From Candidatus Thioglobus sp. NP1 (GTDB taxonomy: Bacteria > Pseudomonadota > Gammaproteobacteria > PS1 > Pseudothioglobaceae): a stretch of 64,000 bases of DNA. The notes beneath the pieces were generated by a model. It made no database searches. It was not told the origin of the DNA and worked only from the letters and a program-made list of their open reading frames with translations. Shown here one piece after another: positions 29,699-50,371 of this stretch. The DNA lies in the NCBI RefSeq assembly GCF_003326015.1, contig NZ_CP023860.1, positions 124,001 to 188,000 on the forward strand, written 5' to 3'. Position 1 is the first letter of the stretch, and each line of letters begins with the position of its first letter. The position numbers were made by a program, and so were the translations under genes.

Positions 29699-29699
29699 T

Positions 29700-30431: not shown

Positions 30432-30438
30432 TTAAAAG

Positions 30439-32154: not shown

Positions 32155-32162
32155 AATTATTA

Positions 32163-33149
32163 TTATAAAGGTTTAAATGATGCCTCAAAAAAGTTTAGCC
32201 AGTTTTTACCCATTATGAGATCTACATCACTATTATTAAAACCAACACTCACTAGACCATTAGCAATATTAATAAAATCGCGGTTATCACGGAACCATTG
32301 AGGCTGGTCAGGAAAACCTGCAAAACTAGCAGATCCCTCTCCATAATCTCGCTCATTTGTCCAAGTTCCATTTCTCATCCATTCAACAATACTATCAGGC
32401 TGATTCTGGCATAAATCAGTACCTATGCCAATATTTGTAACACCCATAATTTCAGCAGTTTCGGCAACCATATTGCAGAAACTTTCTAGTGAACAGTTAG
32501 TACCATCTTTAAGGTGGTGAGCATAAACTGAGAAGCCAAGCATACTGCCACTTTCTCCCAAAGCCTCAAGAACCTTATTAGATTTATTTCTTAATGCAGG
32601 ATGCCAAAAAGTTGGATTTGCATGAGTAATAGCAATAGGTCTTTCAGAAATTTCAATAGCTTCAAGTGTGGATTTCTCTGCTGAATGACTCATATCAACA
32701 ACCAGTCCAACTCTATTCATCTCTTTGATAACCTGCTTACCCATTCGTGTGATGCCAGGATCATTATCTTCATAACATCCAGTTCCTAACAAGCTCTGAT
32801 TGTTATAAGTTAATTGCATAAACCTGACACCTAGCTGATGACATATTTCTACTAGTCCAATATTATCCTCAATAGGAGAGCAATTTTGAAAACCAAAAAA
32901 TATTGCAGTTCTACCCTCTTTTTGAGCTTTTTCAACATCACTTGCTGTTCTTCCATGAAAAATCATATTTGAATAATTTTCAAAATACCGATTCCAATCA
33001 ATTACATTCTGAACCATTTCCTGAAAATCTTCATGATAGCAAATGGTGACATGAATTGCACTCAGACCACCTTCCTGAATTTGCTTAAAAACCTCCTCAC
33101 TCCAATTATTGTATTGAAGAGCGTCAATAAAAAGAGATTGATGCGCCAT
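32163..33149 (-). CDS. M19 (renal dipeptidase) family protein with altered metal site
   Basis: TIM-barrel protein of the membrane-dipeptidase family (328 residues), recognised from VEICHQLGVRFMQLTYNN, VVDMSHSAEK, HANP and GIGTDLCQ. The usual metal ligands are partly gone: the N-terminal HxD motif reads DALQY (residues 9-13) and the bridging Glu is Gln88 (FGFQN). H155 and H176 remain. From memory the M19 protein in the Pseudomonas dimethylglycine/sarcosine cluster has the same changes, so this may be a distinct one-metal subfamily tied to methylated-amine degradation. Start overlaps the aldehyde dehydrogenase stop as TAATG. Confidence 0.8.
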   Translation of the reverse strand: MAHQSLFIDALQYNNWSEEVFKQIQEGGLSAIHVTICYHEDFQEMVQNVIDWNRYFENYSNMIFHGRTASDVEKAQKEGRTAIFFGFQNCSPIEDNIGLVEICHQLGVRFMQLTYNNQSLLGTGCYEDNDPGITRMGKQVIKEMNRVGLVVDMSHSAEKSTLEAIEISERPIAITHANPTFWHPALRNKSNKVLEALGESGSMLGFSVYAHHLKDGTNCSLESFCNMVAETAEIMGVTNIGIGTDLCQNQPDSIVEWMRNGTWTNERDYGEGSASFAGFPDQPQWFRDNRDFINIANGLVSVGFNNSDVDLIMGKNWLNFFEASFKPL

Positions 33150-34597
33150 TAAGGATTGCCGCCAGAAATATAAGAAGTTTTAACTTGAGTATAAAGCTCT
33201 TTAGCATATGAGCCTTGCTCTCTAGGACCAAAACTTGAATTTTTTCTACCGCCAAATGGAACATGATAGTCAGTCCCTGCAGTTGGGAGATTAACCATAA
33301 CACATCCACTTTCAGCATTTCTTCTAAAGTGATTAGCTCTTGATAAAGACTTTGTTACAATTCCTGAAACCAGGCCAAAGTCCGTATCATTAGCAACCGT
33401 TAGTGCCTCATCATAATCTGCAACTTTGATAACGCAAGCCATAGGTGCAAATAACTCTTCGCGGTTTACGCGCATAGAGTTATTGCCACCAATTAATAAG
33501 GAGGGCTGCATGTAAAATCCAGGCTTTTCAAGCTCCAGCTGGTGTCCACCACAAACGATCTCGCATCCTTCTTCTTTTGCCAGGCTCATATAATTTAGAT
33601 TTGAGTCTAATTGCTGCTGACTCACTGCTGGTCCTATTTGAGTACCTTCCTCAAGAGCATGACCAACTTTAAGAGCTGAGGTGGATTGATGCATGCGCTC
33701 CACAAACTCATCATGAATTGCCTCGTGGACAACAAGCCTAGAAGAAGCTGTGCATTTTTGCCCAGTACTTCCAAATGCTCCAGCAGAGGCAACACTAACT
33801 GCCACCTCAATATCAGCATCATCCATAACAACTAATGGATTTTTTGAGCCTAACTCTAATTGAAACTTAGTCAAATTTTTTGCTGCTGCATTAGCAATCT
33901 GGAGGCCAACATTATAGGAGCCTGTAAAACTTATTGCATGAACCTTAGGACTTTCAGCTAAAGTTTGGCCAATAGAGGGACCAGATCCCATTACTAGATT
34001 AAATAGACCCTTAGGTATGTCCTGTCTTGAAATTATTTCAGTCAAAGCAACTGCACTTGCAGGTGTCAAGTTTGCAGGCTTCCAAATTACAGCATTTCCA
34101 AAAGCTAATGCTGGGGCAATTTTCCAACTTGCTGTAGCTGTAGGAAAATTCCAGGGTGAAATAATTGCAACAGTTCCCATCGGCTCTCTTCGAATATCAA
34201 TCTCGATTCCTGGTCTGACTGAATCAGCAGTATCACCGGTTTGACGCAAGACTTCTGCAGCAAAATACGTGAAAAACTGTCCAGCTCGATAAACCTCTCC
34301 TTTACCTTCTGCAAGTGGTTTTCCCTCCTCTCGAGATAATAATTCGCCTAGCTCAGAGCTTCGAGACATCATCTCCTCACCAATCTTCATCAATACTGCT
34401 TGACGCTGTTCTAAGCCTGTAGTTGCCCACTCTTTTTGAGCTATTTGAGCAGCATTTAGTGCATCATCTAAATGTGCATTACTTGCTTGAGCAAACTGTC
34501 CGATAATATCATTAGTATCCGAAGGATTAATGTTTGCTATCGAACTAGTGCCCTGCACCCAGTCACCAGCTATAAAATTATTTGATTGGTTTGACAT
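33149..34597 (-). CDS. NAD(P)-dependent aldehyde dehydrogenase (semialdehyde type)
   Basis: Aldehyde dehydrogenase of 482 residues. Motifs: SPWNFPTATASWKIAPALAFGNAVIWKPA, LELGSKNPLVVMDDA (general base Glu) and FGSTGQKCTASSR (catalytic Cys). The SRxxxAEGGCVMVNLPTAGTDYHVPFGG-type C terminus is closest to alpha-ketoglutaric/succinic semialdehyde dehydrogenases. The substrate is not provable. It is the first gene of the four-gene run with the M19-like, 571-residue and DUF3726-like genes, and it diverges from the first MttB-family gene over a 143-base control region. Confidence 0.85.
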   Translation of the reverse strand: MSNQSNNFIAGDWVQGTSSIANINPSDTNDIIGQFAQASNAHLDDALNAAQIAQKEWATTGLEQRQAVLMKIGEEMMSRSSELGELLSREEGKPLAEGKGEVYRAGQFFTYFAAEVLRQTGDTADSVRPGIEIDIRREPMGTVAIISPWNFPTATASWKIAPALAFGNAVIWKPANLTPASAVALTEIISRQDIPKGLFNLVMGSGPSIGQTLAESPKVHAISFTGSYNVGLQIANAAAKNLTKFQLELGSKNPLVVMDDADIEVAVSVASAGAFGSTGQKCTASSRLVVHEAIHDEFVERMHQSTSALKVGHALEEGTQIGPAVSQQQLDSNLNYMSLAKEEGCEIVCGGHQLELEKPGFYMQPSLLIGGNNSMRVNREELFAPMACVIKVADYDEALTVANDTDFGLVSGIVTKSLSRANHFRRNAESGCVMVNLPTAGTDYHVPFGGRKNSSFGPREQGSYAKELYTQVKTSYISGGNP

Positions 34598-34678
34598 GTA
34601 TTAATAACAATTTAAGAAAAATATTAATTTTACTCTTTAATAGCTATTTATCAAGGTTTTAGCTGCTCATTATTTAAG

Positions 34679-34707
34679 TTGACCTTATCGAGTAACTGTC
34701 ATAGAAT
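34679..34707 (+). promoter_or_regulatory. sigma70 promoter for the MttB 1 operon
   Basis: TTGACC (34679-34684), exactly 17 bases, then TAGAAT (34702-34707); each hexamer is 5 of 6 to consensus. It lies 34 bases before the start, and an AAGGA ribosome site follows. This is the best-formed promoter in the window. Confidence 0.65.
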
Positions 34708-34740
34708 AGTTATATTAAGGGAGTAGTAAGGATAAATTTT

Positions 34741-36282
34741 ATGGCACACAATAATGAACGCCTTGGTAGGGATGCTAGAAGATCAGATAGATTAAAAGTC
34801 AAAATTAATATGCTTCCAACATTGAAGCGAAACCTACCTCTAACTGAACCAATGAGTGAAGAGCAAATAGAAAAGATGGATGATGCTTCCTTGTCAATTC
34901 TAGAGGATGTTGGGGTTGAATTTCATGATCCTATTGCTCTAGAGCATTGGAAAGAAGCTGGAGCAGATGTAGATGGTGAGCGTGTTCGCTTTGATAGAGG
35001 TCTAATACGCGAACTGATTGCGACAATTCCTGAAAGTATTACAATGAATGCTCGCGATTCAAAAAAATCTCTTGAAATAGGGGGCAACAACTCCATTTTT
35101 GTTCCAATGACTGGTGCGCCCTTTCTTACCGATCTAGAAAATAAAAGACGCATGCCAACACTGGATGATCTTGCTAATTTTCATAAGCTTTCTCATATGC
35201 TTCCAGCAATTCACTCAAGTGCTCATCATATTGTTGAGCCCATGGATCACGCCATATCACACAGACACCTTCGTATTACCTATTCATCAATGAAACACTC
35301 TGATAAAACTTTTATGGGCATGACAAGTAGTGGAAAAAATGCTGAAGATGTTATCGAAATGTGCAAGATTCTTTTTGGAGAAAAATACATAGACTCAAAT
35401 CCAGTAGTTACAGGAAATATAAATGGAAATTCACCACTCGTTTGGGATCAAACTATGCTCTCAGCACTAAGAGTATTTTCAGCACACAATCAGCCTGTTT
35501 TATGCTCCCCATTTGTTCTTGGTGGAGCCAATACACCTGCAAGTGTTGCTCCAACAGTAGCTCAAGTTAATGCTGAAGCACTTTCAGCACTTGCCTATAC
35601 TCAGGTGATTCGTAAAGGTGCACCCGCAATATATGGACATTACTTGGCAACTGTATCAATGCAATCTGGAGCACCAATGGCTGGAACACCTGAAATTTCA
35701 TTAATGAATTTTATGATTGGACAAATGGCACGACATTATAAAGTCCCTTGGAGAAGTTCAAATACACTGGGTGGCTCAAAACTTTTTGATGCCCAATCAG
35801 GTTATGAGAGTGCCTCAACAATGATGGCAGTTCTTTTATCAGGAGCAAACTATATTTGGCATTCTGCAGGATGGAATGAAGCTGGAATGCATTGCTCAAT
35901 GGCTAAATTTGTTGTTGATGCAGAGCAATGTGAAATGGGATACAGAATGGCTGAGGGAATTCGTTGGGATGATTTTAATGAAGGCTTGGCTGCAATTAGG
36001 GATGTTGGTCCAGGAGGGCATTATCTTGGACATGAACATACAATGGAAAATTTTCAAAGAGCCTTCTTTATGCCTAAATTATTTGACAATAACTCTATTG
36101 AACAGTGGCAAGCTGATGGCAGCAAAGACACAATTCAAAGAGGTCTTGAAACTGCTAAGAAATTATTAGATGACTACCAAGAGCCAAAACTAAGTGAGGA
36201 TAAAGATGAAGAGCTTCTAGACTATATAGCCAGAAGAGAAATTTCAATTCCAACAATGGAGGCTCTAAATCAAGAATATTAA
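34741..36282 (+). CDS. MttB-family (trimethylamine/quaternary amine methyltransferase) protein 1
   Basis: A 513-residue TIM-barrel protein of the MttB superfamily, seen from LSILEDVGVEFHDPIALEHWKEAGADVDGERVRF, NINGNSPLVWD, GAPAIYGHYLATVSMQSGAPMAGTPE and ARHYKVPWRSSN. There is no in-frame amber codon, so it lacks the pyrrolysine of true trimethylamine methyltransferase. Non-pyrrolysine relatives demethylate glycine betaine, proline betaine, carnitine or gamma-butyrobetaine with a corrinoid protein. No corrinoid protein is encoded in the window, so either the partner is elsewhere or it does something else. It heads a plus-strand run with two SDRs and a flavoprotein. Confidence 0.8.
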   Translation: MAHNNERLGRDARRSDRLKVKINMLPTLKRNLPLTEPMSEEQIEKMDDASLSILEDVGVEFHDPIALEHWKEAGADVDGERVRFDRGLIRELIATIPESITMNARDSKKSLEIGGNNSIFVPMTGAPFLTDLENKRRMPTLDDLANFHKLSHMLPAIHSSAHHIVEPMDHAISHRHLRITYSSMKHSDKTFMGMTSSGKNAEDVIEMCKILFGEKYIDSNPVVTGNINGNSPLVWDQTMLSALRVFSAHNQPVLCSPFVLGGANTPASVAPTVAQVNAEALSALAYTQVIRKGAPAIYGHYLATVSMQSGAPMAGTPEISLMNFMIGQMARHYKVPWRSSNTLGGSKLFDAQSGYESASTMMAVLLSGANYIWHSAGWNEAGMHCSMAKFVVDAEQCEMGYRMAEGIRWDDFNEGLAAIRDVGPGGHYLGHEHTMENFQRAFFMPKLFDNNSIEQWQADGSKDTIQRGLETAKKLLDDYQEPKLSEDKDEELLDYIARREISIPTMEALNQEY

Positions 36283-36285
36283 AAC

Positions 36286-37056
36286 ATGAAAAAAATTAAA
36301 GATTCTAAAATTGCCTTGATTACTGGAGCATGTGGTGGCATTGGTAAAGCGCTTGTTCATAAATATGCTAGTCAAAATATTACTCTTGCTCTTGCAGATA
36401 AGTCTCAAGATCAACTCGATAAACTTGTAAAAGAGATCCAAAAAAATGGTGGAACAGCTGTTGCTTTTCCAGGTGATCTTAGTGACAAGAATTATTGTGA
36501 TAATTTAGTTAATAACGTTATGATGGAATTTAAAAAAATAGACATATTAGTAAATAATGCTGGCTTAATGAGACGAGGTGACATTACTAATACATCTGAT
36601 GATGATTACGAGATGTCAATGGCTATTAATGTTGAGGCTCCATTTCGTATTGTTCGATCTATAATTCCGTTGATGTCAAATGCTGGTGGTGGTTCAATTG
36701 TAAATGTCTCATCATGCTGGGGTATAAATCCAGGTCCTAACCACCTAATTTACTGTACTACAAAAGCTGCTTTAGCCACTATGACGAAATGTTTGGGACG
36801 GGATCATGCTCATCAAAATATACGTATTAATGCCGTTTGTCCTAATGAGGTTAATACTCCTATGCTCAGAACTGGTTTCGAAATACGTGGTCTGGATTCT
36901 AATGATGCAATTAATGAATTAAACCAATCAGTTCCTATTGGTCATATAGCGGAGCCTGAAGAAATTGCAGATGTTATTACATTTTTAACTTCAAATGAAG
37001 CAAGATATATATGTGGTTCTCTAGTGGAGATTAATGGTGGAAAAGCGGTTTACTGA
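36286..37056 (+). CDS. short-chain dehydrogenase/reductase 1 (MttB operon)
   Basis: NAD(P)-dependent oxidoreductase of 256 residues. Cofactor motif TGACGGIG near residue 13, NNAG near 91, active-site Ser in NVSSCWG and YCTTK for Tyr and Lys. It ends in the usual LTSNEARYICGSLVEINGGKAVY. It starts 3 bases after the MttB-family gene, so coupling is likely. The alcohol or ketone it acts on is unknown; with a second SDR and a flavin oxidase it may oxidise an intermediate of the same compound. Confidence 0.88.
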   Translation: MKKIKDSKIALITGACGGIGKALVHKYASQNITLALADKSQDQLDKLVKEIQKNGGTAVAFPGDLSDKNYCDNLVNNVMMEFKKIDILVNNAGLMRRGDITNTSDDDYEMSMAINVEAPFRIVRSIIPLMSNAGGGSIVNVSSCWGINPGPNHLIYCTTKAALATMTKCLGRDHAHQNIRINAVCPNEVNTPMLRTGFEIRGLDSNDAINELNQSVPIGHIAEPEEIADVITFLTSNEARYICGSLVEINGGKAVY

Positions 37057-37780
37057 TAAAGTTATCGTCATTACAGGGGCCTCTAGAGGTATTGGTTTGG
37101 CTTGTGCAAAACGCTTTGAGATGGAGGGGGCAAAAGTTTGCACTATTCAGCGCAGTAAATCTAAATTATTTGACTCATATGAATTTAACTTAAAACATGA
37201 ACAAGAATGTTTAGAGAGTATTAGTACAATTTATAAAAAATATGGATATATTGATGTTCTGGTTAATAATGCAGGGATGATGGAGGAAGCATTAATCCAA
37301 GATACATCAATTGATAGTTGGAATAACACCCTCTCTTTAAATCTAACTGCGCCTTTTTTAATGAGCAAATTTGCTATGCCACATCTTATTAGGTCAAAGG
37401 GTTGCATAGTTAATATTGGCTCTATCGAGGGCATTGGAGCTAATCCAAAGCATGCTGCTTATTGTGCAAGTAAGGCTGGTCTTCATGGCCTTACAAGAGC
37501 AGTTGCAATCGATCATGGAATTGATGGTGTTCGCTGTAATGCAGTTGCACCTGGATGGATTGATACTAAACTCAATGAAGATTTTATTAATTCAATGCCA
37601 GATCCAAGTTCTTTTAAAGATAATATAGCTTCGATACACCCACTTAATAGAACTGGAAAAGTCGAAGAGGTAGCCGCTTTAGTCTCATGGCTTGCTTCCA
37701 ATGAGTCAAGCTTCATAACTGGAGAGGTTTATACCATTGATGGGGGGCGCATGTCAAAAATTACCTTACCAAATAATTAA
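37034..37780 (+). CDS. short-chain dehydrogenase/reductase 2 (MttB operon)
   Basis: Second SDR of the run (248 residues). Motifs: TGASRGIG, NNAGMM, NIGSIEGIG and YCASK. The C terminus SSFITGEVYTIDGGRM is standard. Its ATG lies inside the end of the first SDR gene: the two overlap by 23 bases in different frames, with GGAG four bases before the start. It is not a simple duplicate of SDR 1; the sequences differ throughout apart from motifs. Confidence 0.88.
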   Translation: MVEKRFTDKVIVITGASRGIGLACAKRFEMEGAKVCTIQRSKSKLFDSYEFNLKHEQECLESISTIYKKYGYIDVLVNNAGMMEEALIQDTSIDSWNNTLSLNLTAPFLMSKFAMPHLIRSKGCIVNIGSIEGIGANPKHAAYCASKAGLHGLTRAVAIDHGIDGVRCNAVAPGWIDTKLNEDFINSMPDPSSFKDNIASIHPLNRTGKVEEVAALVSWLASNESSFITGEVYTIDGGRMSKITLPNN

Positions 37781-37782
37781 CA

Positions 37783-39138
37783 ATGGCTAGTAATATTAAG
37801 ATTCCTATAAATCCTGGAAGAACTGGCTGGAAAGAAATCCTTCCAACCAGAACAGTTAACCAAAATCTTTTGGATAATATCAATGCAGATTATTTAATTA
37901 TTGGAGGTGGGTTTGCTGGCTTGTCAGCCGCTCGAAGACTAAATCAAATAGATGCAAGTGCAAAAATTGTTTTAGTTGAAGCCTGTGAAATTGGAGAGGG
38001 GCCTGCAGGAAGAAACTCTGGATTCATGATTGATCTTCCTCACAACTTAGCCTCTGATGATTATCTAGGAAGCCTCGAAAAAGATCGCGAACAAACCCTG
38101 ATTAATCGCTCTGCAATTGAATTCGCTAAGAGAGCTTCAGAGGAATATGAAATGCCAGCTGAAGCGATACAACTTGTCGGTAAAACGAACGCAGCAGCAT
38201 CAAAAAAGGGTATGAAATTCAATACTGATTATGCAAAACATCTAGACAAAACGAGTGAAGCTTACAAAATGCTCGATGCACAAGAAATGAAAAGTCTAAC
38301 CGGCACCGACTACTATATAAATGGACTATGGACTCCAGGTACAGCAATGCTTCAGCCTGCACTTTATATCCAATCATTAGCAGATGGTATTTCTAAAAAA
38401 TCAAATGTAGTCATCTATGAAAACTCACCAGTCATTGCACTAGAGGATGAAGGGCGTCATGATGGACTAAAGATTTGGAAAGCGAAAACCAACTATGGGT
38501 CAATTTCAAGTCCAAAAATTATATTAGCAGTTAACGGCATCGTTGAGCGTTTTGGTTATTTTAAAAATAGCTTAATGACAATTTTTACATACTCCTCATT
38601 AACAAGAGAATTAACCTTGGATGAATCTAATTCCCTAGGAGGCTCTCCTGAATGGGGATTAACTTCAGCAGATGCTATGGGTTCTTCTGTGAGGCGCATC
38701 TCTGGAATTGGTGGTGATAGAATTTTGGTAAGAAATAGGTGGTCATATAATCCAAGTATGGAGGCTAAAGATTCATTTATGAGCGCAGCAGCTAATAGTC
38801 ATAATGAATCATTCAAAGCACGCTTTCCAATTCTCAAAAAAATGTCTATGGAATACTCCTGGGGAGGAAGACTTTGCCTTAGCCTTAATAATGTCTTTGC
38901 TCAAGGTGAAGTTGATGAAGGAGTTTATTCAGCTTGCTGCCAAAATGGTCTTGGAACTGCTAAAGGAACCGCTATTGGAATTATTACAGCTGAAAAAATA
39001 AGTGATGAAAAAAATAGCCTTATTCCAAACTTTAAAGATGAAGAATCTCCAAAAAAACTAATGCCAAAACCTCTTATGTGGGTTGGAGTTAGTAGCTATG
39101 TCCTCTGGAAAGAATTTATGGCAGGTAAAGAAAAATAA
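37783..39138 (+). CDS. FAD-dependent oxidoreductase (DAO superfamily, PuuB/OrdL-like)
   Basis: Flavoprotein of 451 residues that should oxidise a secondary amine or amino acid. FAD-binding motif DYLIIGGGFAGLSAARRL near residue 33, then GEGPAGRNSGFMIDLPH, which fits the GRNSG motif of PuuB/OrdL-like oxidases. LWTPGTAMLQPALYIQSLADG and a C-terminal CCQNGLGTAKGTAIG support the family. Last gene of the MttB 1 run, 2 bases after SDR 2. It ends 12 bases from the convergent MDR gene. The amine substrate cannot be named from sequence. Confidence 0.82.
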   Translation: MASNIKIPINPGRTGWKEILPTRTVNQNLLDNINADYLIIGGGFAGLSAARRLNQIDASAKIVLVEACEIGEGPAGRNSGFMIDLPHNLASDDYLGSLEKDREQTLINRSAIEFAKRASEEYEMPAEAIQLVGKTNAAASKKGMKFNTDYAKHLDKTSEAYKMLDAQEMKSLTGTDYYINGLWTPGTAMLQPALYIQSLADGISKKSNVVIYENSPVIALEDEGRHDGLKIWKAKTNYGSISSPKIILAVNGIVERFGYFKNSLMTIFTYSSLTRELTLDESNSLGGSPEWGLTSADAMGSSVRRISGIGGDRILVRNRWSYNPSMEAKDSFMSAAANSHNESFKARFPILKKMSMEYSWGGRLCLSLNNVFAQGEVDEGVYSACCQNGLGTAKGTAIGIITAEKISDEKNSLIPNFKDEESPKKLMPKPLMWVGVSSYVLWKEFMAGKEK

Positions 39139-39150: not shown

Positions 39151-40227
39151 TTAAGGGATAAGAACAAGTTTTCCAGTATATTTTTTTGATATAAAGTCTT
39201 TTTGGGCATTAACAATATCTTTAAGCAAGTAGCTTTTTGCAACTAGTGGTTTAATCTCATTTCTTTCGATATATCCAATTAAATTTTTGAAAACCTGTTC
39301 ATCTTGAACAGTACAACCCATTAAGGTAAGATCTTTTAAATATAGTGTTCTAATATCAAGCTCTACGATTGGACCAGCTATAGCACCAGCAGTAGCATAC
39401 CTAGAACCCCTTTTGAGAACTTCAAGCAGCTCACTCCATTGACTTCCAGCAACTAAATCAAGAACCACATCAATACTTTCAGCCTCCAGAGCTCCAGTAA
39501 TACTCTCACCTCGGTTTATAACAATATCTGCGCCTATTTTTTGGACTTCAAGAGATTTTTCTTTGCTTGCAATTGCAATTACCTTAGCACCTCTTCTTTT
39601 TGCTAATTGAATCGCAGCAGATCCAACACCTCCAGAGGCTCCTGTAATTAATACAACTTCATCCTTTTTAACATTAGAGCGCTCCAAGAGATTCTCTGCA
39701 GTCGAGTATGCACAAGGAATTGTTGCTAACTCTAGATCACTCCAATCACTATCAATCTTGAAAGTCTCTTTGCTAAAAGCAACCATATATTGTGCAAAGG
39801 CTCCATCACACTCTGAACCCATTGTCCAACATTCATATGGCCTATAGTCAACTGCATATTGTTGCATAGTTCTAACTAAAACTCTCTCACCAACTCTATG
39901 AGCATCAACCTGATCACCAACCAAAACAATTTCACCACAACAATCAGCGCCTTGAATAATAGGAAAATTAAGAGGCACGCCCTCCCAACCACCATCCTTA
40001 TAATGGCCATAGGAATCATTTAAATTAGTTTCGCCTGAAACTGACTTTGAATACCAAGCAGTACGAGTATTTATGTCGGTATTATTTAACCCAGCACCTA
40101 GGACTTTTATTAATACTTGATCAGACTTTGGATGAGGAATTTCAATATCATTTCGAAACTCAAGTACTTCAAATCCTCCATGACCAGTTGTTATAACTGC
40201 ACTCATTGTATTTGGAATTGTATTCAT
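39151..40227 (-). CDS. MDR-family zinc-type/quinone-like oxidoreductase
   Basis: Medium-chain dehydrogenase/reductase (358 residues). GroES-like N-terminal domain (FPIIQGADCCGEIVLVGDQV, about residues 95-115), then the Rossmann motif TGASGGVGSAAIQLAKRRGAKVIA (about 200-225), and KYTGKLVLIP at the end. It is 5 bases after the DddP-like gene. In other DMSP degraders an MDR enzyme (AcuI) detoxifies the acrylate product as acryloyl-CoA, but this protein is longer and does not look like AcuI, so I leave the substrate open. Confidence 0.8.
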   Translation of the reverse strand: MNTIPNTMSAVITTGHGGFEVLEFRNDIEIPHPKSDQVLIKVLGAGLNNTDINTRTAWYSKSVSGETNLNDSYGHYKDGGWEGVPLNFPIIQGADCCGEIVLVGDQVDAHRVGERVLVRTMQQYAVDYRPYECWTMGSECDGAFAQYMVAFSKETFKIDSDWSDLELATIPCAYSTAENLLERSNVKKDEVVLITGASGGVGSAAIQLAKRRGAKVIAIASKEKSLEVQKIGADIVINRGESITGALEAESIDVVLDLVAGSQWSELLEVLKRGSRYATAGAIAGPIVELDIRTLYLKDLTLMGCTVQDEQVFKNLIGYIERNEIKPLVAKSYLLKDIVNAQKDFISKKYTGKLVLIP

Positions 40228-40232: not shown

Positions 40233-41549
40233 TTAGAGGAGTAATTCAGACTCAAAAGGGTAGTTAGTTAATAATTCATAACCATTATCAGTGACTAAAA
40301 CCTGCTCCTCAAGCTTAACACCTGGACCTCCATCATAGCGACCAACATAGGTCTCAACACACATAACCATGCCAGGCTTTAAGATTCCATCAAAACTGTT
40401 CTCATTTAACTCCCAGCTAAATGGTATAGCAGGAAATTCATCACATAAGCCTACACCATGAAAAAGTACTGAGTAATGTCGAAATTCATCCTTTAAATAC
40501 TCCTTAGAATTTAAAGTTAATTCCTTAAAAGTTGTACCTGGTTTTAATAACTCCATATTATTTTGTATTTGTTCATAACCCATAGTGTAAATTTCTTTTT
40601 GCTCATCAGTCGGCTTCCCATCACCACACAACCAAGTTCGAGACATGTCTGTGCAGTATCCATATGAGCCAACCAAGTCAGTATCAAAACCCATTAACTC
40701 TCCACTTAAAATGGGGCGTGATGAGCACTCTTGATACCAAGGGTTTGCTCTGGGTCCTGAGGCAAGTAATCTAGTTTCAATCCATTCTGCACCTCTAGAG
40801 ACAGCCTCCATCTGAAAACGACTCCAAAGCTCTTGTTCAGTAATTCCAGGCTTAAAGTGATTTCGCATAAGCTCAATTGACTTTTCACATGCAAAAATAG
40901 ACCGCTTCATAGCTTTTATCTCATCTTCTGATTTAATAAGCCTAGCAAGCTCCATCACTTCCTCTCCATTTTTCAACTTAAGGCCATTTATTTGAAGTTC
41001 ATGAATGCCCTCGGGAGCACAATGATCTATTGCTAAGTTTTTGTTTCCTTTACCATATTCATTAACTATATCAACAATTTCAGATGCCCATATCTTAGCC
41101 CTCTCTTTGCTTTTATCTCCAGCAGTAAAGTATAAATAGGTGACTGCATGTCTGACTTCAGTAATTAAAGGATTGTGGTTTGATAGAAAATCATGGGCAT
41201 CAAACTCAAAAATAATGACAGGACCATCCGTCATTACAAGTGCGTAACGAGCAGCGTTATGGGAGGTCCACAAAGACATATTTGTACTGTCTGTTGCGTA
41301 ACGAATATTTAATGGATCGTAGAGAAGAATGCCAGCATAGTCATGCTCAACAAGTTTCTCTCGTACTCTTTTTAATCTATATTGTCTTATTTTTGTCATA
41401 TCTGGGTTTGCCAAACCAGCCTCTAGCCATTCAGACTCAGCAAGCTCTCCGGGGCCTAATGCATGTTTATTTAGACTATAGATATCCTCTTCACCTTTTA
41501 GGTGAGAGCCTATTTTTGCATGGTGTCTTTTAGCTGATGTAAAACTCAT
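40233..41549 (-). CDS. dddP: DddP-like M24-fold protein, candidate DMSP lyase
   Basis: 438 residues with the M24 peptidase fold. It resembles the Roseobacter DMSP lyase DddP along its length: PLNIRYATDSTNM..W..HN, WIETRLLASGPR.NPW.QEC, FDTDLVGSYG.C.D.SR and HGVGLCDE. By my alignment from memory all described active-site residues are kept: metal ligands D289, D291, D301, H364, E399 and E414, plus Y359 and the proposed catalytic base D370. DddP splits dimethylsulfoniopropionate into dimethylsulfide and acrylate. Neighbours are a DMGDH-like flavoprotein and an MDR enzyme. Distant DddP relatives can have other substrates, so activity is a strong candidate, not proven. Confidence 0.7.
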   Translation of the reverse strand: MSFTSAKRHHAKIGSHLKGEEDIYSLNKHALGPGELAESEWLEAGLANPDMTKIRQYRLKRVREKLVEHDYAGILLYDPLNIRYATDSTNMSLWTSHNAARYALVMTDGPVIIFEFDAHDFLSNHNPLITEVRHAVTYLYFTAGDKSKERAKIWASEIVDIVNEYGKGNKNLAIDHCAPEGIHELQINGLKLKNGEEVMELARLIKSEDEIKAMKRSIFACEKSIELMRNHFKPGITEQELWSRFQMEAVSRGAEWIETRLLASGPRANPWYQECSSRPILSGELMGFDTDLVGSYGYCTDMSRTWLCGDGKPTDEQKEIYTMGYEQIQNNMELLKPGTTFKELTLNSKEYLKDEFRHYSVLFHGVGLCDEFPAIPFSWELNENSFDGILKPGMVMCVETYVGRYDGGPGVKLEEQVLVTDNGYELLTNYPFESELLL

Positions 41550-41566: not shown

Positions 41567-43981
41567 TCATCTCATTTTAGATCCAGACGGATCATAAAGG
41601 GGCTCCATGACAATGGATGCCTCTTTGAACTCTCCCAATATCTCTACTTCAAGTTTTGCATTGGAGTCAATTAATTCAACTGGAAGATAGGTCATCGCAA
41701 GTGATTTTTTAACCGAATGTCCATAGCCCCCTGAAGTAATATAGGAAACACACTCCCCATTATGCATCACTGCCTCGTCACCACTGACATCGGTTTCAGT
41801 ATCGATATGTATTACTGAAAGCTTTTTGCTTGGTCCATTCTTTTTCTCAATTAATGCTGCTTTTTTTCCTATAAAGTCTTTATCCCAGTCCACAAAGAAA
41901 TCAAGTCCTGACTCCATTATTGTAAAGTCTGGCCTGAAGTCCATAGTCCATGCACCCCAACTTTTCTCAAGCCTCATAGACATCAAAGCTCTTCCTCCAA
42001 ACCACTTGAGGTTAAGATCTACCCCTAACTCTTCTATAGCCTCAAAGAGTTTCAGTTGGTACTGAGGCGCCACATAAATCTCATAGCCAAGCTCTCCAGT
42101 AAATGAAATTCGGGTGCAGAGTGCCGGCACGCCCCCAATAAATGTATCTCTGATATCTCTGAATTTAAATGTCTCTAAACTCACATCTTCCCGAGTAAGC
42201 CTTGATAACAGTTCTCGAGAGTTTGGACCCGATATCGCAATGCCATGAAAATCATCTGTCATATTCTGATAGAAAACATCTTGAACACCCTCAAGATGCA
42301 TCTCAAACCAGCGAAGATGCATATTTTGTGCAACGCTTGAACCGAATAAGTAGAATGTTTCTTCGTCAATACAGGCAACTGTGAGGTCGCCATTGAGCTT
42401 ACCACTCTCCAAAAGCATAGGTGTCAAATTCACTCTTCCGGGGCCTGGAATCCTACCTGCCAATAACCTATTCAAAAATGCTTTAGCACCCTTACCAGTA
42501 AACTTGTGATTGGCGAAGTTAGCAACCTCACTTGCTCCAACAGACCCCCTCACAGCTTCGACTTCCTTAGCTACGTAATCATGAGATCTTGATCTGTGAA
42601 ATGTTGGCTCTTCATAAGCATCATCTGGAGAGTTGGCAAACCAAAGTGCATTTTCAAGTCCAAAAGTATCTTGCCATACAGCTCCTTTCTGGGTAAGGCG
42701 GTCATAAATTGATGTTGTTTTCTGAAGCCTGCCTTTTGGTAGTGTCTCATTTGGAAAAGTCATCACAAAGCGACGTTCATAATTTTCTGAGGACTTAATC
42801 ACACCCCATTCAGGTGTTGCAAAATCTCCAAAGCGGGCAATATCCATTGCCCAAACATCGACAGAAGGCTCTCCATCAATCATCCATTCTGCCAAAGTTT
42901 TCCCAACACCTCCTGCTTGACAGAAGCCTGCCATTACCCCAACTGCAGTCCAGTAGTTTTTCATTCCTGGAACAGGTCCTATCATTGGATTCCCATCGGG
43001 TGAAAAAACAAATGGGCCATTAATTATATTCTTTATACCTGTAGTTCCTAGTACTGGAATTCGCTCAAAAGCAAGCTCTAATCGATCCGCAATACGATCC
43101 AAGTCTGGCTCCAGTAGATCATGACCAAATGTTTGTGGTGTTCCATCTAAAGACCAAGGGGTTGAGCGAGGCTCATATGTTCCCAACAACATGCCCGTAC
43201 CTTCTTGTCGGGTATAAATATTAGCCTCAAAGTCAATACAACTTGGCAGTCTTTGCCCATCCTTCAAGTTCGCGACTTGTTCAATTTCTTCAGTAATTAA
43301 ATAATGATGTTCCATTGGAACTACAGGTAAATGAATTCCAGACATACGACCAAGCTCTCTAGCCCACAGACCACCAGCATTAACTATATATTCAGCATGA
43401 ATATTTCCTTTTTCAGTTACAACATCCCAAGAACCATCAGATCGCTGATTAGTCTCTATAACAGGCGTATGAGTATAGAATTCTGCACCATGAACTCGTG
43501 CTGATTTTGCGTATGCATATACAACTCCTGAAGGATCAATATCACCATCAGAAGGATCCCAAAGTGCTGCAACATAATGATCAGGATTAATTAATGGGTG
43601 TTTTTCTATGACTTCATCTAAAGAAACAAATTCTTGATTTAAACCTAAAGATCTAGCATTCGAGCGCTCTCGCTTGAGATAATCATGCCAATTTTGATTA
43701 GATGCTAAGTAATAGCCTCCAGTTTTATGCATACTGATTGAATGACCTGAAGTCTCTTCAATTTCTTTATAAAGATTAATTGTGTAATCTTGTAATTTTG
43801 AAACATTAGGATCAGAACTAATAGTGTGGAACGAGCCAGCTGCATGCCAACTAGAACCTGAAGTAAGTTCATCCCTTTCAAGCAAGATGACATCTTTCCA
43901 ACCCATTTTTGCAAGATGAAATAGGATAGAGCACCCAACTACTCCACCTCCAATTACTACAACCCGAGCCTGATCTTTCAT
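41567..43981 (-). CDS. dimethylglycine/sarcosine dehydrogenase-like flavoprotein
   Basis: An 804-residue fusion: FAD-dependent DAO domain (VVVIGGGVVGCSILFHLAKMGWKDVILLERDELTSG, residues 7-42), FAO_M linker, and an aminomethyltransferase-like folate domain (about 430-790, with DMRL-type MSMRLEKSWGAWTMDF and FIGKKAAL). H46 in GSSWHAAG matches the His that carries covalent FAD in dimethylglycine and sarcosine dehydrogenases. The expected reaction is oxidative N-demethylation with transfer of the methyl carbon to tetrahydrofolate. It follows MttB 2 and precedes the DddP-like gene by 17 bases, so it may share a substrate family with them. Confidence 0.85.
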   Translation of the reverse strand: MKDQARVVVIGGGVVGCSILFHLAKMGWKDVILLERDELTSGSSWHAAGSFHTISSDPNVSKLQDYTINLYKEIEETSGHSISMHKTGGYYLASNQNWHDYLKRERSNARSLGLNQEFVSLDEVIEKHPLINPDHYVAALWDPSDGDIDPSGVVYAYAKSARVHGAEFYTHTPVIETNQRSDGSWDVVTEKGNIHAEYIVNAGGLWARELGRMSGIHLPVVPMEHHYLITEEIEQVANLKDGQRLPSCIDFEANIYTRQEGTGMLLGTYEPRSTPWSLDGTPQTFGHDLLEPDLDRIADRLELAFERIPVLGTTGIKNIINGPFVFSPDGNPMIGPVPGMKNYWTAVGVMAGFCQAGGVGKTLAEWMIDGEPSVDVWAMDIARFGDFATPEWGVIKSSENYERRFVMTFPNETLPKGRLQKTTSIYDRLTQKGAVWQDTFGLENALWFANSPDDAYEEPTFHRSRSHDYVAKEVEAVRGSVGASEVANFANHKFTGKGAKAFLNRLLAGRIPGPGRVNLTPMLLESGKLNGDLTVACIDEETFYLFGSSVAQNMHLRWFEMHLEGVQDVFYQNMTDDFHGIAISGPNSRELLSRLTREDVSLETFKFRDIRDTFIGGVPALCTRISFTGELGYEIYVAPQYQLKLFEAIEELGVDLNLKWFGGRALMSMRLEKSWGAWTMDFRPDFTIMESGLDFFVDWDKDFIGKKAALIEKKNGPSKKLSVIHIDTETDVSGDEAVMHNGECVSYITSGGYGHSVKKSLAMTYLPVELIDSNAKLEVEILGEFKEASIVMEPLYDPSGSKMR

Positions 43982-44058: not shown

Positions 44059-45579
44059 TTATAAGGCTGGTGCTCCACCCTCTGAGACCCTCCTATCAAC
44101 AAAACTTTTGAGCTCTTCTTCAACTTCCATCTTAAGCTTTGGCTCTTCATAATCATCTAAAAGTTGCTTCCATATTTTGTTTGCTCTTTGAGAAGCGGTA
44201 ACTGATCCACTGTCTCTCCAAGACTCAAAATTTCTCCAATCTGAAAGTAGTGGATTGTAGTGCTCAGTCTCATAACGTTCCAATGTTTGTTGAGCAGCAA
44301 AAAAATGATTTGCAGGACCTACTTCAGCAATTGCTTCAACCCCTAAAGTGTCTTTGTTAGCAGGTGAAGGCTGCATAAAAGCCTCCATCATTTGATTCAT
44401 TTCAGCATCTAAGATTATTTTTTCATAGGATGCACAAAGCCCTCCTTCAATCCATCCATGACCATGCAAAATGAAGTTTACTTGGCCCAATAAACAAGCC
44501 CATAATGACATCTGAGACTCATAAACTGACTGCTCATCAGGAGCGTTTGAAGCATTAGCATTTGACGCTCTAAGGGGAATCTTATATTTCCGAGCTAACT
44601 GGCCACTTGCAATTGTAGCTTTTGTATATTCAGGAGTTCCAAAAGCTGGCGAGCCAGATTTCATATCAACATTAGATGTGAAGCTACCATAAATAGCTGG
44701 AGCTCCAGGGTTCACACACTGATGAAAGGCCAGTCCTGCTAAAGCTTCTGCATTTTGTTGCACTAGTGCCCCTGCTATAGTAATAGGTGCCATAGCTCCG
44801 GCAAGAGTAAATGGGGTATAGATAACTGGCTGGTTATTTTCAGCCATTTCAATAGCGCCTTCTAAAAGAGCCCTGTCATAAACTAGTGGAGAATTTGCAT
44901 TTACCACTGTTGTAATAGAAGGCTCTTTTAACAAAGTTTCTTTATCAATACCTCTCCCAATTCTAACAATTTCAATTGCATCAAGCATTCTTTCACTTCC
45001 AATTGCATAGCCAAAAAGGGGTTTAGTTGAAAGCCGAGATGCTGCAGATATAGCGTGAAGATGACGAACTCTTACATCAATGTCACAAGGCTCAACAGGA
45101 TAGCCACCAAGGGCATGAACAGTATTTAAAATCTCTCCAAGTTTAATTAAATTTGAATAATCTTCAAAGTTACCTAGAATTCTCCCTCTCTCTAAATCTG
45201 AAACATTAGGTGCACTTGAAACCAAAGTATTAACTACAGAATTTCCACCAATATGGACATGTCTTTCTTTATATCTTCCATGAAGAGTAAACTCACTTGG
45301 AGTTGTTGCTATTTTTTCCATAACAAAACCAGGCTCAAACCTTACGCGCTTTCCATCACTAGCAATATTAGCTCCAGCTTTTTTTAGAATTTCTACTGCA
45401 CGAGGGGATTGGAAATCCAAACCAGTATCACATAAAACTTTTAATGAAGCTTGATGAATTGACTCAATCTCATCCTCTGAAAATATAGTCATTGGCTGAA
45501 AAGGATTCTTTTTTTGGCTATAAGGAGCCTGCTTGAAGTCTACTACCTCTCTAGAAACTTTAGCTCTACCTCTTCTCAT
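44059..45579 (-). CDS. MttB-family (quaternary amine methyltransferase-like) protein 2
   Basis: Second MttB-superfamily protein (506 residues), clearly related to but distinct from the one at 34741. Shared marks: LKVLCDTGLDFQSPRAVEILKKAGANIASDGKRVRFEPG, VVNANSPLVYDRALLEG, GAPAIYGSFTSNVDMKSGSPAFGTPE. No in-frame amber codon. Upstream, TTGAGT and TAACAT 17 bases apart (45636-45641 and 45613-45618, minus strand) are a weak promoter. It heads the run MttB 2, DMGDH-like, DddP-like, MDR. A corrinoid partner is missing here too. Confidence 0.8.
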   Translation of the reverse strand: MRRGRAKVSREVVDFKQAPYSQKKNPFQPMTIFSEDEIESIHQASLKVLCDTGLDFQSPRAVEILKKAGANIASDGKRVRFEPGFVMEKIATTPSEFTLHGRYKERHVHIGGNSVVNTLVSSAPNVSDLERGRILGNFEDYSNLIKLGEILNTVHALGGYPVEPCDIDVRVRHLHAISAASRLSTKPLFGYAIGSERMLDAIEIVRIGRGIDKETLLKEPSITTVVNANSPLVYDRALLEGAIEMAENNQPVIYTPFTLAGAMAPITIAGALVQQNAEALAGLAFHQCVNPGAPAIYGSFTSNVDMKSGSPAFGTPEYTKATIASGQLARKYKIPLRASNANASNAPDEQSVYESQMSLWACLLGQVNFILHGHGWIEGGLCASYEKIILDAEMNQMMEAFMQPSPANKDTLGVEAIAEVGPANHFFAAQQTLERYETEHYNPLLSDWRNFESWRDSGSVTASQRANKIWKQLLDDYEEPKLKMEVEEELKSFVDRRVSEGGAPAL

Positions 45580-45654: not shown

Positions 45655-45685
45655 AATAAAAATAGTGAGCTGTATTCAGCTCACT
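45655..45685 (-). terminator. intrinsic terminator at the end of operon A
   Basis: On the minus strand a 9-base perfect stem (AGTGAGCTG / CAGCTCACT, bases 45664-45672 and 45677-45685) with a 4-base loop is followed by TATTTTTATT. It lies 10 bases after the SnoaL-like stop, so it ends the solute-binding-protein operon before MttB 2. Confidence 0.75.
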
Positions 45686-46755: not shown

Positions 46756-48360
46756 CTATTTATTTTCCAAAATTATTCTTGCGCCTCGCTCTGCAATCAT
46801 CATCGTTGGGGCAGAGGTATTTCCACTTATAATGCTTGGCATAATTGAAGCATCTATAACTCGAAGATTACGCATCCCTTTAACCTTTAAATTATCAGGT
46901 GAAACGACTGACATATCATCAACTCCCATTTTGCAGGTCCCCACAGGATGGTAGACAGTGACTGCAGTCTTACGAATATATGCCAATAAATCTTCATCTG
47001 ATTGGATAGAATTTCCTGGAGCTATTTCTTCTCCCCTAACCACATCAAACTCTTTGGACGATAATATATCTCTCGCTTTTTTAATTGCCTCAACAATGCT
47101 TTTTTCATCCCTAGAATCAGACAAGAAATTATGGTCAACAATAACCTTATGCTTGTCACCATCCTTCTTTATCTTAACTGACCCTTTACTATGGGGTCTC
47201 AATAGACATGTGAATAGAGAATACCCATGCCCAAATTCAAACCTTCTTCCACGATGACTTCGGTAAATAGGTGTAAAGTGAAACTGAACATCAGGATATT
47301 CAGGGCTTCCAAGTTTTGTATATGCAAAACCTCCTGCCTCAACAAAATTACTGGTCCACCAGCCCATTCTCCTAAATAAGTAGTTAAAAGGAGATGTAAC
47401 GACTTGTGGAAATAAAGTCTTCCAAGAAACTCCAATTGATTCTGTTTTTTTTGAACGAACAGTGACCATTGTGTCTAAATGGTCTTGGAGATTTTCACCA
47501 ACCCCTGGAACATTATGTTTACAAGTTACGCCTACTTTTTTAAGCTCTTCTCTATCACCAACTCCAGATGATAAAAGTATTCTTGGTGATTCAATTGCCC
47601 CAGCAGATAGAACAACCTCTTTATTACAAAGCAATTGGTTATCTATGCCATTGACTTGAAGCTTAATAGATTGGGCACTATCACCCTCAATCTCTATTGA
47701 CTGAACCCTGGAATTTGTCATTATTGTAAGGTTTGCTCTTGAAGAAATTGGAGCAATAAAAGCTTTATAGGAGTTTACTCGAGCTCCTTTATCTTGATTA
47801 ACCTTATAAATTCCCAAGCCCAGTTGAGACTCGTCATTAAAGTCAGGATTATTTGGTAGCCCTATATGAGAACCAGCCTCAATAAAACGCATAGCCGTCT
47901 TATTGACATCTTGTGGCATGACAACTGGCCACTCACCAGAGGTTGAATGATACTTAGGGTCTGCACCTGTTTGATCTTTCTCAAGTTTTTTAAATATCGG
48001 CAATACATCATTATAAGACCATCCATCACAACCAAGAGCCTTCCAATTATCATAATCCTTTTTATTTCCACGAATATAAATCATTCCATTGATTGAACTA
48101 GACCCACCAAGACACCTACCTCGATTAACAGTAATTACACGATTGTTTAATTTTTTTTGTGGCGCTCCCTTATAGGCATAGTCAAGCTTTTTATGTCCGT
48201 ACGCAAATGAAAGGCCAGCAGGAATTTGAACCAATGGACTCTTATCACTTCCACCTCCCTCAATCAAACAGACAGTGGTTTTGGGATTTGCGCTGAGTCG
48301 ATTCGCTAAAACACATCCAGCAGAGCCTGCACCAATGATAATATAATCAAACGAGGACAA
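46756..48360 (-). CDS. GMC-family FAD oxidoreductase (choline/alcohol dehydrogenase-like)
   Basis: 534-residue flavoprotein that oxidises a primary or secondary alcohol. FAD motif DYIIIGAGSAGCVLANRLS at residues 5-23; GMC signatures GRCLGGSSSINGMIYIRGNKKDYDNW and GAIESPRILLSSGVGD; catalytic His in VYHPVGTCKMG and the ISGNTSAPTMMIAERGA end. It looks like the BetA/AlkJ group, but choline is only one of many possible substrates and no BetB-type partner is adjacent. Within operon A it is 3 bases after the second permease, so its substrate is probably what the transporter imports. Confidence 0.87.
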   Translation of the reverse strand: MSSFDYIIIGAGSAGCVLANRLSANPKTTVCLIEGGGSDKSPLVQIPAGLSFAYGHKKLDYAYKGAPQKKLNNRVITVNRGRCLGGSSSINGMIYIRGNKKDYDNWKALGCDGWSYNDVLPIFKKLEKDQTGADPKYHSTSGEWPVVMPQDVNKTAMRFIEAGSHIGLPNNPDFNDESQLGLGIYKVNQDKGARVNSYKAFIAPISSRANLTIMTNSRVQSIEIEGDSAQSIKLQVNGIDNQLLCNKEVVLSAGAIESPRILLSSGVGDREELKKVGVTCKHNVPGVGENLQDHLDTMVTVRSKKTESIGVSWKTLFPQVVTSPFNYLFRRMGWWTSNFVEAGGFAYTKLGSPEYPDVQFHFTPIYRSHRGRRFEFGHGYSLFTCLLRPHSKGSVKIKKDGDKHKVIVDHNFLSDSRDEKSIVEAIKKARDILSSKEFDVVRGEEIAPGNSIQSDEDLLAYIRKTAVTVYHPVGTCKMGVDDMSVVSPDNLKVKGMRNLRVIDASIMPSIISGNTSAPTMMIAERGARIILENK

Positions 48361-48363: not shown

Positions 48364-49245
48364 TTAACCCTTGACAGCGCCGGCTGTTAATCCACTAACA
48401 AGCTGTCTTTGAAAAAACATAACCAGAATAAACAATGGAATTATGGCAGATACAACTGCTGCAACTGCAAACATAATATTACCTTCTGTTTGAGTAGTAC
48501 CCATAAAGCTAGCAATTTTAGGGACCATAGTTTGGTTTTCCTGGGATAGCAGAATTGCTGTAACAGCAAAATCATTATATGCCAAAAGAAATGAGAAGAG
48601 TCCAGCAGTAATAACACCTGGCCACATCACTGGAATTATTACATGTCGAAATGCTTGGAACTGAGTACAGCCATCAACTTTTGCACTCTCATCAAGCTCT
48701 TTCGGAATTGTTTGAAAAAATGAGTGCAGCATCCATAATGTAAAAGGCTGGTTAATTGCCACTAAAACAATAATAGTAGTCGGAAGTGTTCCCCAAACAT
48801 TCCAATCGTAGAAGGGTTGTAAATACCCAGAAACAAGAGTGATTGGAGGCAGAGCACGAAAAACAAGTGCGATTATTAGCAGCCAAAAAGAATAACGAAA
48901 GCCAGACCTTGAAAGCGCATAACCACCTAAAGTTGCAAGAGTTAATGATATGAGTACTGTGAAAAAACAAACTATCGCTGTATTAAGAAAAGCGCGCCAA
49001 AACTCTTCTTGGATCCATGCGCCCTCATAACCAGCGCCTGTAAAAGATTCTCCATATACTGCTTGAGTTCTTACTCCAGAAAATACATTAGTCCAGTCTG
49101 CTTTTGAGAAAAAATCCAGCTCTACTTTAAATGAGCCCCACATAGTCCAAATAAATGGAAAGGCTGCCAAAATTAACCAGAATAATACAAAGCCATATAT
49201 AAGTAGTTGGAGTCCTAATGGTCTTTTTATTTGATTTGAAGTCAT
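48364..49245 (-). CDS. ABC transporter permease 2 (MalG/UgpE type)
   Basis: Inner-membrane subunit with about six membrane segments; the coupling EAA loop is ESAKVDGCTQFQAFRHVIIP. I start it at the ATG at 49245 (293 residues): GGAG lies seven bases upstream and the codon follows the first permease's stop directly, while the GTG at 49269 has no such site. The carbohydrate-type (CUT1) class moves sugars, polyols, glycerophosphodiesters and related solutes. Paired with permease 1 and the solute-binding protein; the ATPase is in operon B. Confidence 0.86.
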   Translation of the reverse strand: MTSNQIKRPLGLQLLIYGFVLFWLILAAFPFIWTMWGSFKVELDFFSKADWTNVFSGVRTQAVYGESFTGAGYEGAWIQEEFWRAFLNTAIVCFFTVLISLTLATLGGYALSRSGFRYSFWLLIIALVFRALPPITLVSGYLQPFYDWNVWGTLPTTIIVLVAINQPFTLWMLHSFFQTIPKELDESAKVDGCTQFQAFRHVIIPVMWPGVITAGLFSFLLAYNDFAVTAILLSQENQTMVPKIASFMGTTQTEGNIMFAVAAVVSAIIPLFILVMFFQRQLVSGLTAGAVKG

Positions 49246-49246
49246 A

Positions 49247-50272
49247 TTATTTCTCCGGGTTAAATTCACGCCATGTTCTTATCAAAACAGGCATAAGAAG
49301 TATGACGACGCCAATTATTGTCAACACTGATGTGGTTGCCGCCGAAGAAAGAAGTCTTATCTCTTGGCCAATATCATTCCATATAATCCATGAAAGAGAA
49401 GTCGCATGTGCCGAAGCACTAAAACCAACTATCGGCTCAAATACTCGAAAATTATCCATCAGCTGAATTAAAGCCACAAATGCCACTAGTGGAGATAAAT
49501 GAGGCACAATAACATGAATAGTTTGCTGAAAACGTGTGGCCCCATCAATCATTGCTGCTTCTATAGTTTCTTGCGGAACAGTCTGAAGTCCAGCATAAAA
49601 AACAATGAATGCAAAAGGGGCAGAATGCCAAACACCGTAAACAATAAGTGTTATCCATGTTAGGTTAGTTGATGCTTTTAATGACAGCATTGGATCTGCA
49701 AATAATTCTTGGAGACCTGAACCAATAATACCTCGTGCATCAATCATCCAAAACAGAATCAACGAACCGATCAAAGGGGTAACAATCATTGGCAACAATG
49801 AAAAGAACACCATAAATCCTTTCAAGTGACGATGCAGTGAGTTAACTGCTAGTGCAATTATAAATCCAAATAATATAACCAGTGGGGTTACCACAGCAGT
49901 ATAAGTCAAAGTAAAGCCCATTGCTCGATAAAATGGAAGATTCTTTAGACTGGAAAAAAAATCAATGAAGTTTGTCTTATTCTCCCATAACTCACCAACC
50001 TCTTTAAAGGCTAGGTGATTTCTATCAGTATAGATTTGAAATCCAACCCACTTCCCTTGTGGCTTATCTTTCTTAATTTGTTGACTTGCCTGATGGTCAA
50101 TAGTTGTTTCAGATTTACAACCAAATGGATCACATGATTCAACAACAATCAAAACTGCGTCATGAGGTGTATGAAGTGATTGGCTTACAATCGAAGTTAA
50201 GGGTAAGGCAATGAACAAAAACATTGCTAGTGCTGTAGGTAAAAAAAACCAAAAAAAAGTCTTATGCTTCAT
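49247..50272 (-). CDS. ABC transporter permease 1 (MalF/UgpA type) with a long periplasmic loop
   Basis: 341 residues, longer than typical UgpA (about 295). One membrane segment (7-32) is followed by a loop of about 80 residues with two cysteines (C47, C52; ESCDPFGC) before the second segment near 118. The coupling loop EAAMIDGATRFQQTIHVIVP is canonical. The loop insertion is the odd part; the cysteines could form a disulfide in the periplasm and contact the binding protein. It is 99 bases after the binding-protein gene, across a hairpin, and nearly abuts permease 2. Confidence 0.86.
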   Translation of the reverse strand: MKHKTFFWFFLPTALAMFLFIALPLTSIVSQSLHTPHDAVLIVVESCDPFGCKSETTIDHQASQQIKKDKPQGKWVGFQIYTDRNHLAFKEVGELWENKTNFIDFFSSLKNLPFYRAMGFTLTYTAVVTPLVILFGFIIALAVNSLHRHLKGFMVFFSLLPMIVTPLIGSLILFWMIDARGIIGSGLQELFADPMLSLKASTNLTWITLIVYGVWHSAPFAFIVFYAGLQTVPQETIEAAMIDGATRFQQTIHVIVPHLSPLVAFVALIQLMDNFRVFEPIVGFSASAHATSLSWIIWNDIGQEIRLLSSAATTSVLTIIGVVILLMPVLIRTWREFNPEK

Positions 50273-50307
50273 ATGGAAATAATAAGATTAGAGAAACTTA
50301 ATTATAC

Positions 50308-50340: not shown

Positions 50341-50371
50341 TAATCTTAGGAGACAAACAACTTACAAAAGC

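Follow-up and report, generated by a model that had tools for sequence, protein, structure and literature searches.

A DddP-like M24 enzyme in a conserved MttB/DMGDH module of Candidatus Thioglobus sp. NP1: a possible onium lyase for N-methylated osmolytes

Introduction

In Tara data, about 65% of all ddd genes are dddP (PMC10686828), and maps of DMS production are drawn from this gene. Homologues have been accepted as dddP in published surveys at an HMM E-value of 1e-30 or lower (PMC8520302) or at an identity of at least 40% (PMC6309047). In the mechanism described for RlDddP, the carboxylate of DMSP binds to a mobile Fe, the sulfonium is held by a tryptophan and a tyrosine, and an aspartate takes the alpha-proton, leading to beta-elimination (PMC5395565). 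The Km of DddP for DMSP is 14-17 mM (PMC5395565), a millimolar value that leaves room for another natural substrate, though other DMSP lyases lie in a like range. Ratified DddPs are diverse: AoDddP and FgDddP are 50% and 32% identical to RdDddP, respectively, and because FgDddP is active (PMC4108388), distance alone cannot exclude activity.

MtgBCD, known from Ruegeria pomeroyi and SUP05, is an aerobic glycine betaine demethylation system (PMC12478193). A 2026 bloom study placed Pseudothioglobus among the predicted DMSP degraders and listed the PS1 order for dmdA, not ddd (PMC13310141).

Here we describe a DddP-like gene in a window of 64,000 nucleotides from the genome of Candidatus Thioglobus sp. 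NP1, a single contig of 1.69 Mb with a completeness of 99.9%. The original prediction noted a complete DddP active site next to genes for methylated onium compounds and proposed DMS release. The observation was confirmed, and its interpretation is only partly supported; the conserved MttB/DMGDH/DddP-like module is the more informative finding.

Results

The gene at 40233-41549 (minus strand) has an ATG start and encodes a DddP-like M24 metalloenzyme of 438 amino acids. A phmmer search of the PDB matched residues 29-436 to RlDddP (4RZY) with E = 2.5e-118, and the match to RdDddP (4B28) had E = 2.8e-114. The best non-DddP M24 family reached just E = 1.7e-20, about 100 orders weaker. The protein is 45% identical to RlDddP and 43% identical to RdDddP. 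An AlphaFold model (mean pLDDT 85, pTM 0.86) superposed on the RlDddP structures (4RZY, 4S00, 4S01) with a TM score of 0.89 and an rmsd of 1.8-1.9 A, and the full-length M24 fold was shared with RlDddP and RdDddP (TM 0.89-0.90), so that the predicted whole-length likeness to DddP holds and goes far past what chance would give.

The active-site residues also lie where they had been expected. In the alignment with RlDddP, the six metal ligands D289, D291, D301, H364, E399 and E414 correspond to D295, D297, D307, H371, E406 and E421, and Y359, the putative base D370 and the cation-binding W94 correspond to Y366, D377 and W95. The named residues do not vary among 31 homologues from Pseudothioglobus, as would be expected for an active, selected enzyme. 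Among named records with the gene, the closest are genomes and MAGs of the SUP05 cluster and of Candidatus Thioglobus (83-92% identity), which points to a Pseudothioglobus-like host within the SUP05 clade. In one MAG (G023 C4:94542-95856), the gene is split by an in-frame TGA, either an assembly error or a pseudogene.

On the NCBIfam DddP model (NF043017) the protein scored 480 bits, below the curated cut-off of 600. In a phylum survey of 399 genomes, the matches above the cut-off all scored at least 634 bits and came from a Rhodobacteraceae-type family (f56) and one gammaproteobacterium. The 40233-41549 protein and rhizobial relatives formed a step at 470-483 bits, and further DddP-like groups lay at 280-440 bits.

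A maximum likelihood tree, which left out the fungal DddPs, Oceanimonas DddP1 and DddP2, and the HWgs001 (scallop-symbiont) DddP, contained a canonical clade (support 100/99) with RlDddP, RdDddP, roseobacter DddPs, one DddP from Oceanisphaera and a second paralogue from Pseudothioglobus (L035/L167). The 40233-41549 protein fell outside this ratified bacterial clade. Its own clade comprised sequences from Pseudothioglobus, marine Anaerolineae (the closest non-Pseudothioglobus relatives, 65-66% identity), Chloroflexi, Denitromonas and Acidimicrobiia, and had a clade of Mesorhizobium, Roseibium and Ahrensia sequences next to it. A constraint that grouped the window and Anaerolineae sequences with canonical DddP to the exclusion of the rest was rejected (AU p = 2.3e-6), and the layout was unchanged when more sequences were added.

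In an alignment of 141 homologues, the six ligands and the equivalents of Y366 and D377 were invariant in each group examined, including groups that adjoin Rieske oxygenases, glycine betaine transporters and MttB clusters. W95 was invariant except in the most distant Pseudothioglobus paralogues, which have a phenylalanine there. The active-site residues thus do not DISCRIMINATE: they are shared with betaine-linked groups and so do not diagnose DMSP lysis. We therefore discarded them as proof of this activity, and the proposed step from residues to DMS release is not supported. A more distant M24 protein from the Sinorhizobium meliloti plasmid pSymA, added later, keeps all six ligands and has W95 replaced by Y and D377 by G. 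Since this protein belongs to the gene module described below, module membership does not track the residues associated with DMSP lysis.

Close to the metal site, A407 of RlDddP is replaced by T400 in the 40233-41549 protein, and the position is T or S across its clade. Other clade-specific changes relative to RlDddP are F155 to W154, H333 to Q327 and G282 to S276. The fixed MttB and DMGDH partners described below are a further difference from RlDddP and RdDddP.

The gene is part of a minus-strand array, and the predicted neighbours for methylated onium compounds are real. The first gene (44059-45579) encodes an MttB-superfamily methyltransferase of 506 amino acids that matches PF06253 over its full length (611 bits); its reading frame has no in-frame stop codon, hence the protein is without pyrrolysine. 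It is followed by a gene (41567-43981) for a DMGDH-like protein of 804 amino acids with DAO, GCV_T and GCV_T_C domains. The closest solved relative of this protein is human dimethylglycine dehydrogenase, to which it aligns end to end (572 bits) and with which it shares the FAD (DAO) plus GcvT architecture (human 5L46, rat 4P9S/4PAB). The M24 gene comes 17 bp further on, and an MDR oxidoreductase of 358 amino acids (39151-40227) follows after another 5 bp. A terminator-like stem-loop with a T-rich tail (45664-45685, minus strand, a consensus match only) lies between a SnoaL-like gene and MttB and suggests that MttB, DMGDH-like, M24 and MDR genes may form one transcription unit.

The MDR protein was considered as an acrylyl-CoA reductase (AcuI) and rejected with a score of 52 bits versus a cut-off of 440. 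It is 58% identical to the product of a gene adjoining a canonical DddP in Paracoccus yeei, but this link carries little weight, as MDRs with the same degree of similarity are frequent.

Further upstream on the minus strand are genes for a choline dehydrogenase-like GMC oxidoreductase (46756-48360; 553 bits, below the cut-off of 605) and for two ABC-transporter permeases of the MalG/UgpA type (48364-49269 and 49247-50272). This transporter region (48364-51601) also encodes a protein of 409 amino acids in the slot expected for a substrate-binding protein, without a match in Pfam (E <= 1e-10) or NCBIfam (E <= 1e-15). Beyond it, a minus-strand catabolic cluster (51800-61353) includes genes for HAD, RraA-like, hydrolase, methionine-synthase-like (Meth_synt_2), cupin and SnoaL-like proteins, a LacI-type regulator, an SDR and a HisD-like dehydrogenase (436 bits). 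On the other side, next to the module, the region 28319-39138 forms another island for compounds of the N-methyl or amino type, with a serine ammonia-lyase, an M19 dipeptidase, an aldehyde dehydrogenase, two SDRs, a DAO-type oxidase and a second MttB-superfamily methyltransferase of another subfamily (34741-36282, plus strand), which belongs to the neighbouring opposite-strand cluster.

The MttB/DMGDH/M24 trio recurred in named genomes: both partners lay close to M24 in 8 of 9 Pseudothioglobus loci (a contig end cuts the ninth) and in 51 of 57 Rhizobiales/Stappiaceae loci, against just 2 of the 22 loci with a DddP from the canonical clade. As the loci are related, these counts cannot be treated as independent; what is independent is that the trio recurs in separate families. 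In a set of 29 genomes from the host genus, a DMGDH orthologue (at least 80% identity) and the M24 gene were present or absent together, allowing for contig-end cuts: the mismatches (G009, G019 and G030) concern genes that lie at contig ends, and both genes are missing from five genomes. The hosts of the module include dozens of soil Mesorhizobium and Aminobacter species, and many hosts are soil or nodule bacteria.

Distant relatives have similar surroundings. A plasmid of Parasedimentitalea marina carries an M24 gene with DMGDH-like, MttB and sarcosine oxidase genes, and pSymA carries one with a DMGDH-like gene, MttB and a glycine betaine ABC transporter. Another DddP-like group, from Rhizobium, adjoins a Rieske oxygenase and a glycine betaine transporter, and MttB adjoins M24 at two Acidimicrobiia loci. 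DddP-like M24 genes are also carried by leguminosarum plasmids. MttB and DMGDH neighbours were absent from the Anaerolineae, Chloroflexi and Denitromonas M24 loci of named genomes.

When MttB was used as bait on plasmids, M24 was adjacent in S. meliloti and Parasedimentitalea. The idea that an M24 gene stands beside every MttB of this subfamily reflected ascertainment and was dropped, as M24 is absent beside MttB in Leisingera, Shinella and two Mesorhizobium plasmids.

The pSymA cluster (L270, 5176-19407) is flanked by LysR genes and encodes, besides the DMGDH-like protein, MttB and the substituted M24 protein, GlxA, an isochorismatase, the glycine betaine ABC transporter, a mandelate racemase/MLE-type enzyme and Ldh. 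It looks like an uncharacterised betaine catabolic operon.

Canonical DddPs also occur in the module. One case is Pseudothioglobus G028, where a DddP that clears the cut-off with 639 bits adjoins orthologues of the window MttB (81% identity) and DMGDH-like protein (82%), and the window-type M24 copy (70%) adjoins another MttB and an MDR gene. In two Rhodobacteraceae genomes (G308 and G650), DddPs of 796-797 bits, which form a long branch within the canonical clade, lie behind MttB (49-51%) and DMGDH-like (64-65%) genes. Other Rhodobacteraceae DMGDH orthologues are mostly paired with a different MttB subfamily and stand without an M24 gene. Either type of DddP thus seems able to fill this place in the module, an argument that both carry out chemistry of the same kind. 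Convergent active-site changes were sought in the canonical DddPs of the module (L193, L254 and L167) and none was found, which weakens an argument for a substrate switch based on residues.

Altogether, G028 (C1:66757-72522, L167, and C1:152000-158000, L181) has three DddP-family M24 paralogues: the canonical-type one (L167:9183-10523), the window-type one, and a third that is about 34-38% identical.

The genome encodes DmdA, the DMSP demethylation enzyme, above the cut-off; therefore the host meets DMSP. No AcuI for acrylate handling scored over the cut-off in the genome. There are four MttB proteins, and the DMGDH-like protein of the module is one of several paralogues. One corrinoid protein, a methyl-H4F methyltransferase and an AcsV/RamA-like reductive activase are encoded at C1:385-392 kb. 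There (C1:385000-393000, L165) they stand together with an MttB and a formate-THF ligase, and the set is the MtgBCD glycine betaine system of SUP05 (PMC12478193). The window locus resembles MtgBCD in having an MttB-superfamily methyltransferase, with corrinoid protein, methyl-H4F methyltransferase and reactivase elsewhere in the genome, and MttB 44059-45579 would presumably use the shared corrinoid protein. Unlike MtgBCD, the window MttB belongs to a subfamily split with 100/100 support from the MtgB-type group that includes the genome's own MtgB at the corrinoid locus, and the published description of MtgBCD consulted here does not mention an M24 enzyme (PMC12478193).

Discussion

The reading that we favour, at about even odds, is that the 40233-41549 protein is an onium lyase of the DddP family that serves a pathway for N-methyl osmolytes in particular; DMSP would be a possible, unproven substrate. 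It would be a dinuclear-metal M24 enzyme whose clade is the sister group of the ratified bacterial DMSP lyases, working as the fixed partner of the MttB-type corrinoid methyltransferase and the DMGDH-like demethylase. We infer reaction type and substrate by analogy with RlDddP: the metal pair would bind the substrate carboxylate, cation-pi contacts with W94 and Y359 would hold the methylated onium, and the alpha proton would be abstracted by D370, so that the onium would leave via beta-elimination. As the enzyme has every part of the RlDddP mechanism, our best guess for the reaction is a beta-elimination that starts from a beta-onium carboxylate, and a nitrogen onium is favoured because of the gene's neighbours. 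A quaternary or tertiary ammonium osmolyte would then be a more likely physiological substrate than DMSP, the simplest nitrogen analogue of DMSP cleavage would be the conversion of beta-alanine betaine to trimethylamine and acrylate, and cleavage of DMSP itself may be a side activity.

This N-onium function is favoured by the synteny of the trio, the co-occurrence of DMGDH and M24 genes, the betaine-linked distant relatives, the soil and nodule hosts, the partner parts for MttB and the absence of an AcuI over the cut-off. It is opposed by the intact W94, Y359 and D370, which have DMSP roles in RlDddP, by the DmdA of the host, by Anaerolineae relatives that lack such neighbours, and by the Rhodobacteraceae, where the majority of DMGDH orthologues have another MttB as partner and stand without M24. 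The DddPs above the cut-off that share the module in G028 and the two Rhodobacteraceae count against it as well, and a true DMSP lyase could therefore belong to a combined glycine betaine/DMSP osmolyte operon.

Such an operon is the core of the second reading, in which the protein is a DMSP lyase in the true sense, with DMS and acrylate as its products, and the operon groups the catabolism of co-imported glycine betaine and DMSP. We consider this a tentative alternative with appreciable weight. The conserved catalytic residues and fold, the sequence diversity of ratified DddPs, the substitution of above-cut-off DddPs for the window-type M24 protein and the DmdA gene all speak for it. Against it stand the placement apart from the canonical clade, the score of 480 bits against a curated cut-off of 600, the dozens of soil Mesorhizobium and Aminobacter species with the same module, the lack of an AcuI over the cut-off, and residues that are not diagnostic. 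L. aggregata without dddL loses about 97% of its DMSOP lyase activity (PMC10686828) and Labrenzia has a DddP homologue (PMC6309047), which, if this strain has a member of the clade, would be a sign against DMSP-type activity of the clade and is suggestive only. Judged from sequence, DMS release by the protein is possible; as its main role it is rather doubtful.

The protein might instead be a metal-dependent C-N hydrolase of an N-methylated compound, akin to creatinase or ectoine hydrolase, that would pass a methylated amine to the DMGDH-like enzyme. Creatinase and DoeA are M24 non-peptidases that act on small N-compounds and share the fold (TM about 0.7), and the module protein of S. meliloti has all metal ligands but no equivalent of D377. 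Yet both enzymes are less than 20% identical to the protein and deviate from its model by an rmsd of about 5 A, DddP is far closer than any hydrolase in sequence and structure, and the protein retains D291, the sixth ligand, which is missing from methionine aminopeptidases (PMC4108388), so that we regard hydrolysis as improbable. An ordinary Xaa-Pro peptidase, suggested by the M24 family and by the automatic annotation of relatives under this name, is hardly credible given the match to prolidases, whose E-value is about 100 orders weaker than that to DddP, the DddP-like W94 and D291, and the lack of peptidase activity in RlDddP (PMC5395565).

Extended beyond this locus, the N-onium function could mean that the DddP family consists mainly of N-osmolyte onium lyases in MttB/DMGDH modules of Pseudomonadota and possibly Actinomycetota, with DMSP lysis in roseobacters as one specialised or secondary use. 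We consider this rather unlikely, though not remote. If it were true, much of the dddP counted in surveys would be no marker of DMS production.

The published survey thresholds (PMC8520302, PMC6309047) would count the 40233-41549 clade as dddP, and its carriers include abundant SUP05 bacteria and marine Chloroflexi MAGs. If the clade breaks down N-osmolytes, dddP-based DMS estimates will have to be split by clade; if it cleaves DMSP, SUP05 will have a route to DMS, and DddP a fixed set of metabolic partners. A call of DMS production from sequence alone is not safe.

The module DddPs of the two Rhodobacteraceae (L193 in G308:C13 and L254 in G650:C17) are second, diverged DddPs that are still above the cut-off, and may serve as natural test cases for a DddP that has moved into an N-methyl pathway.
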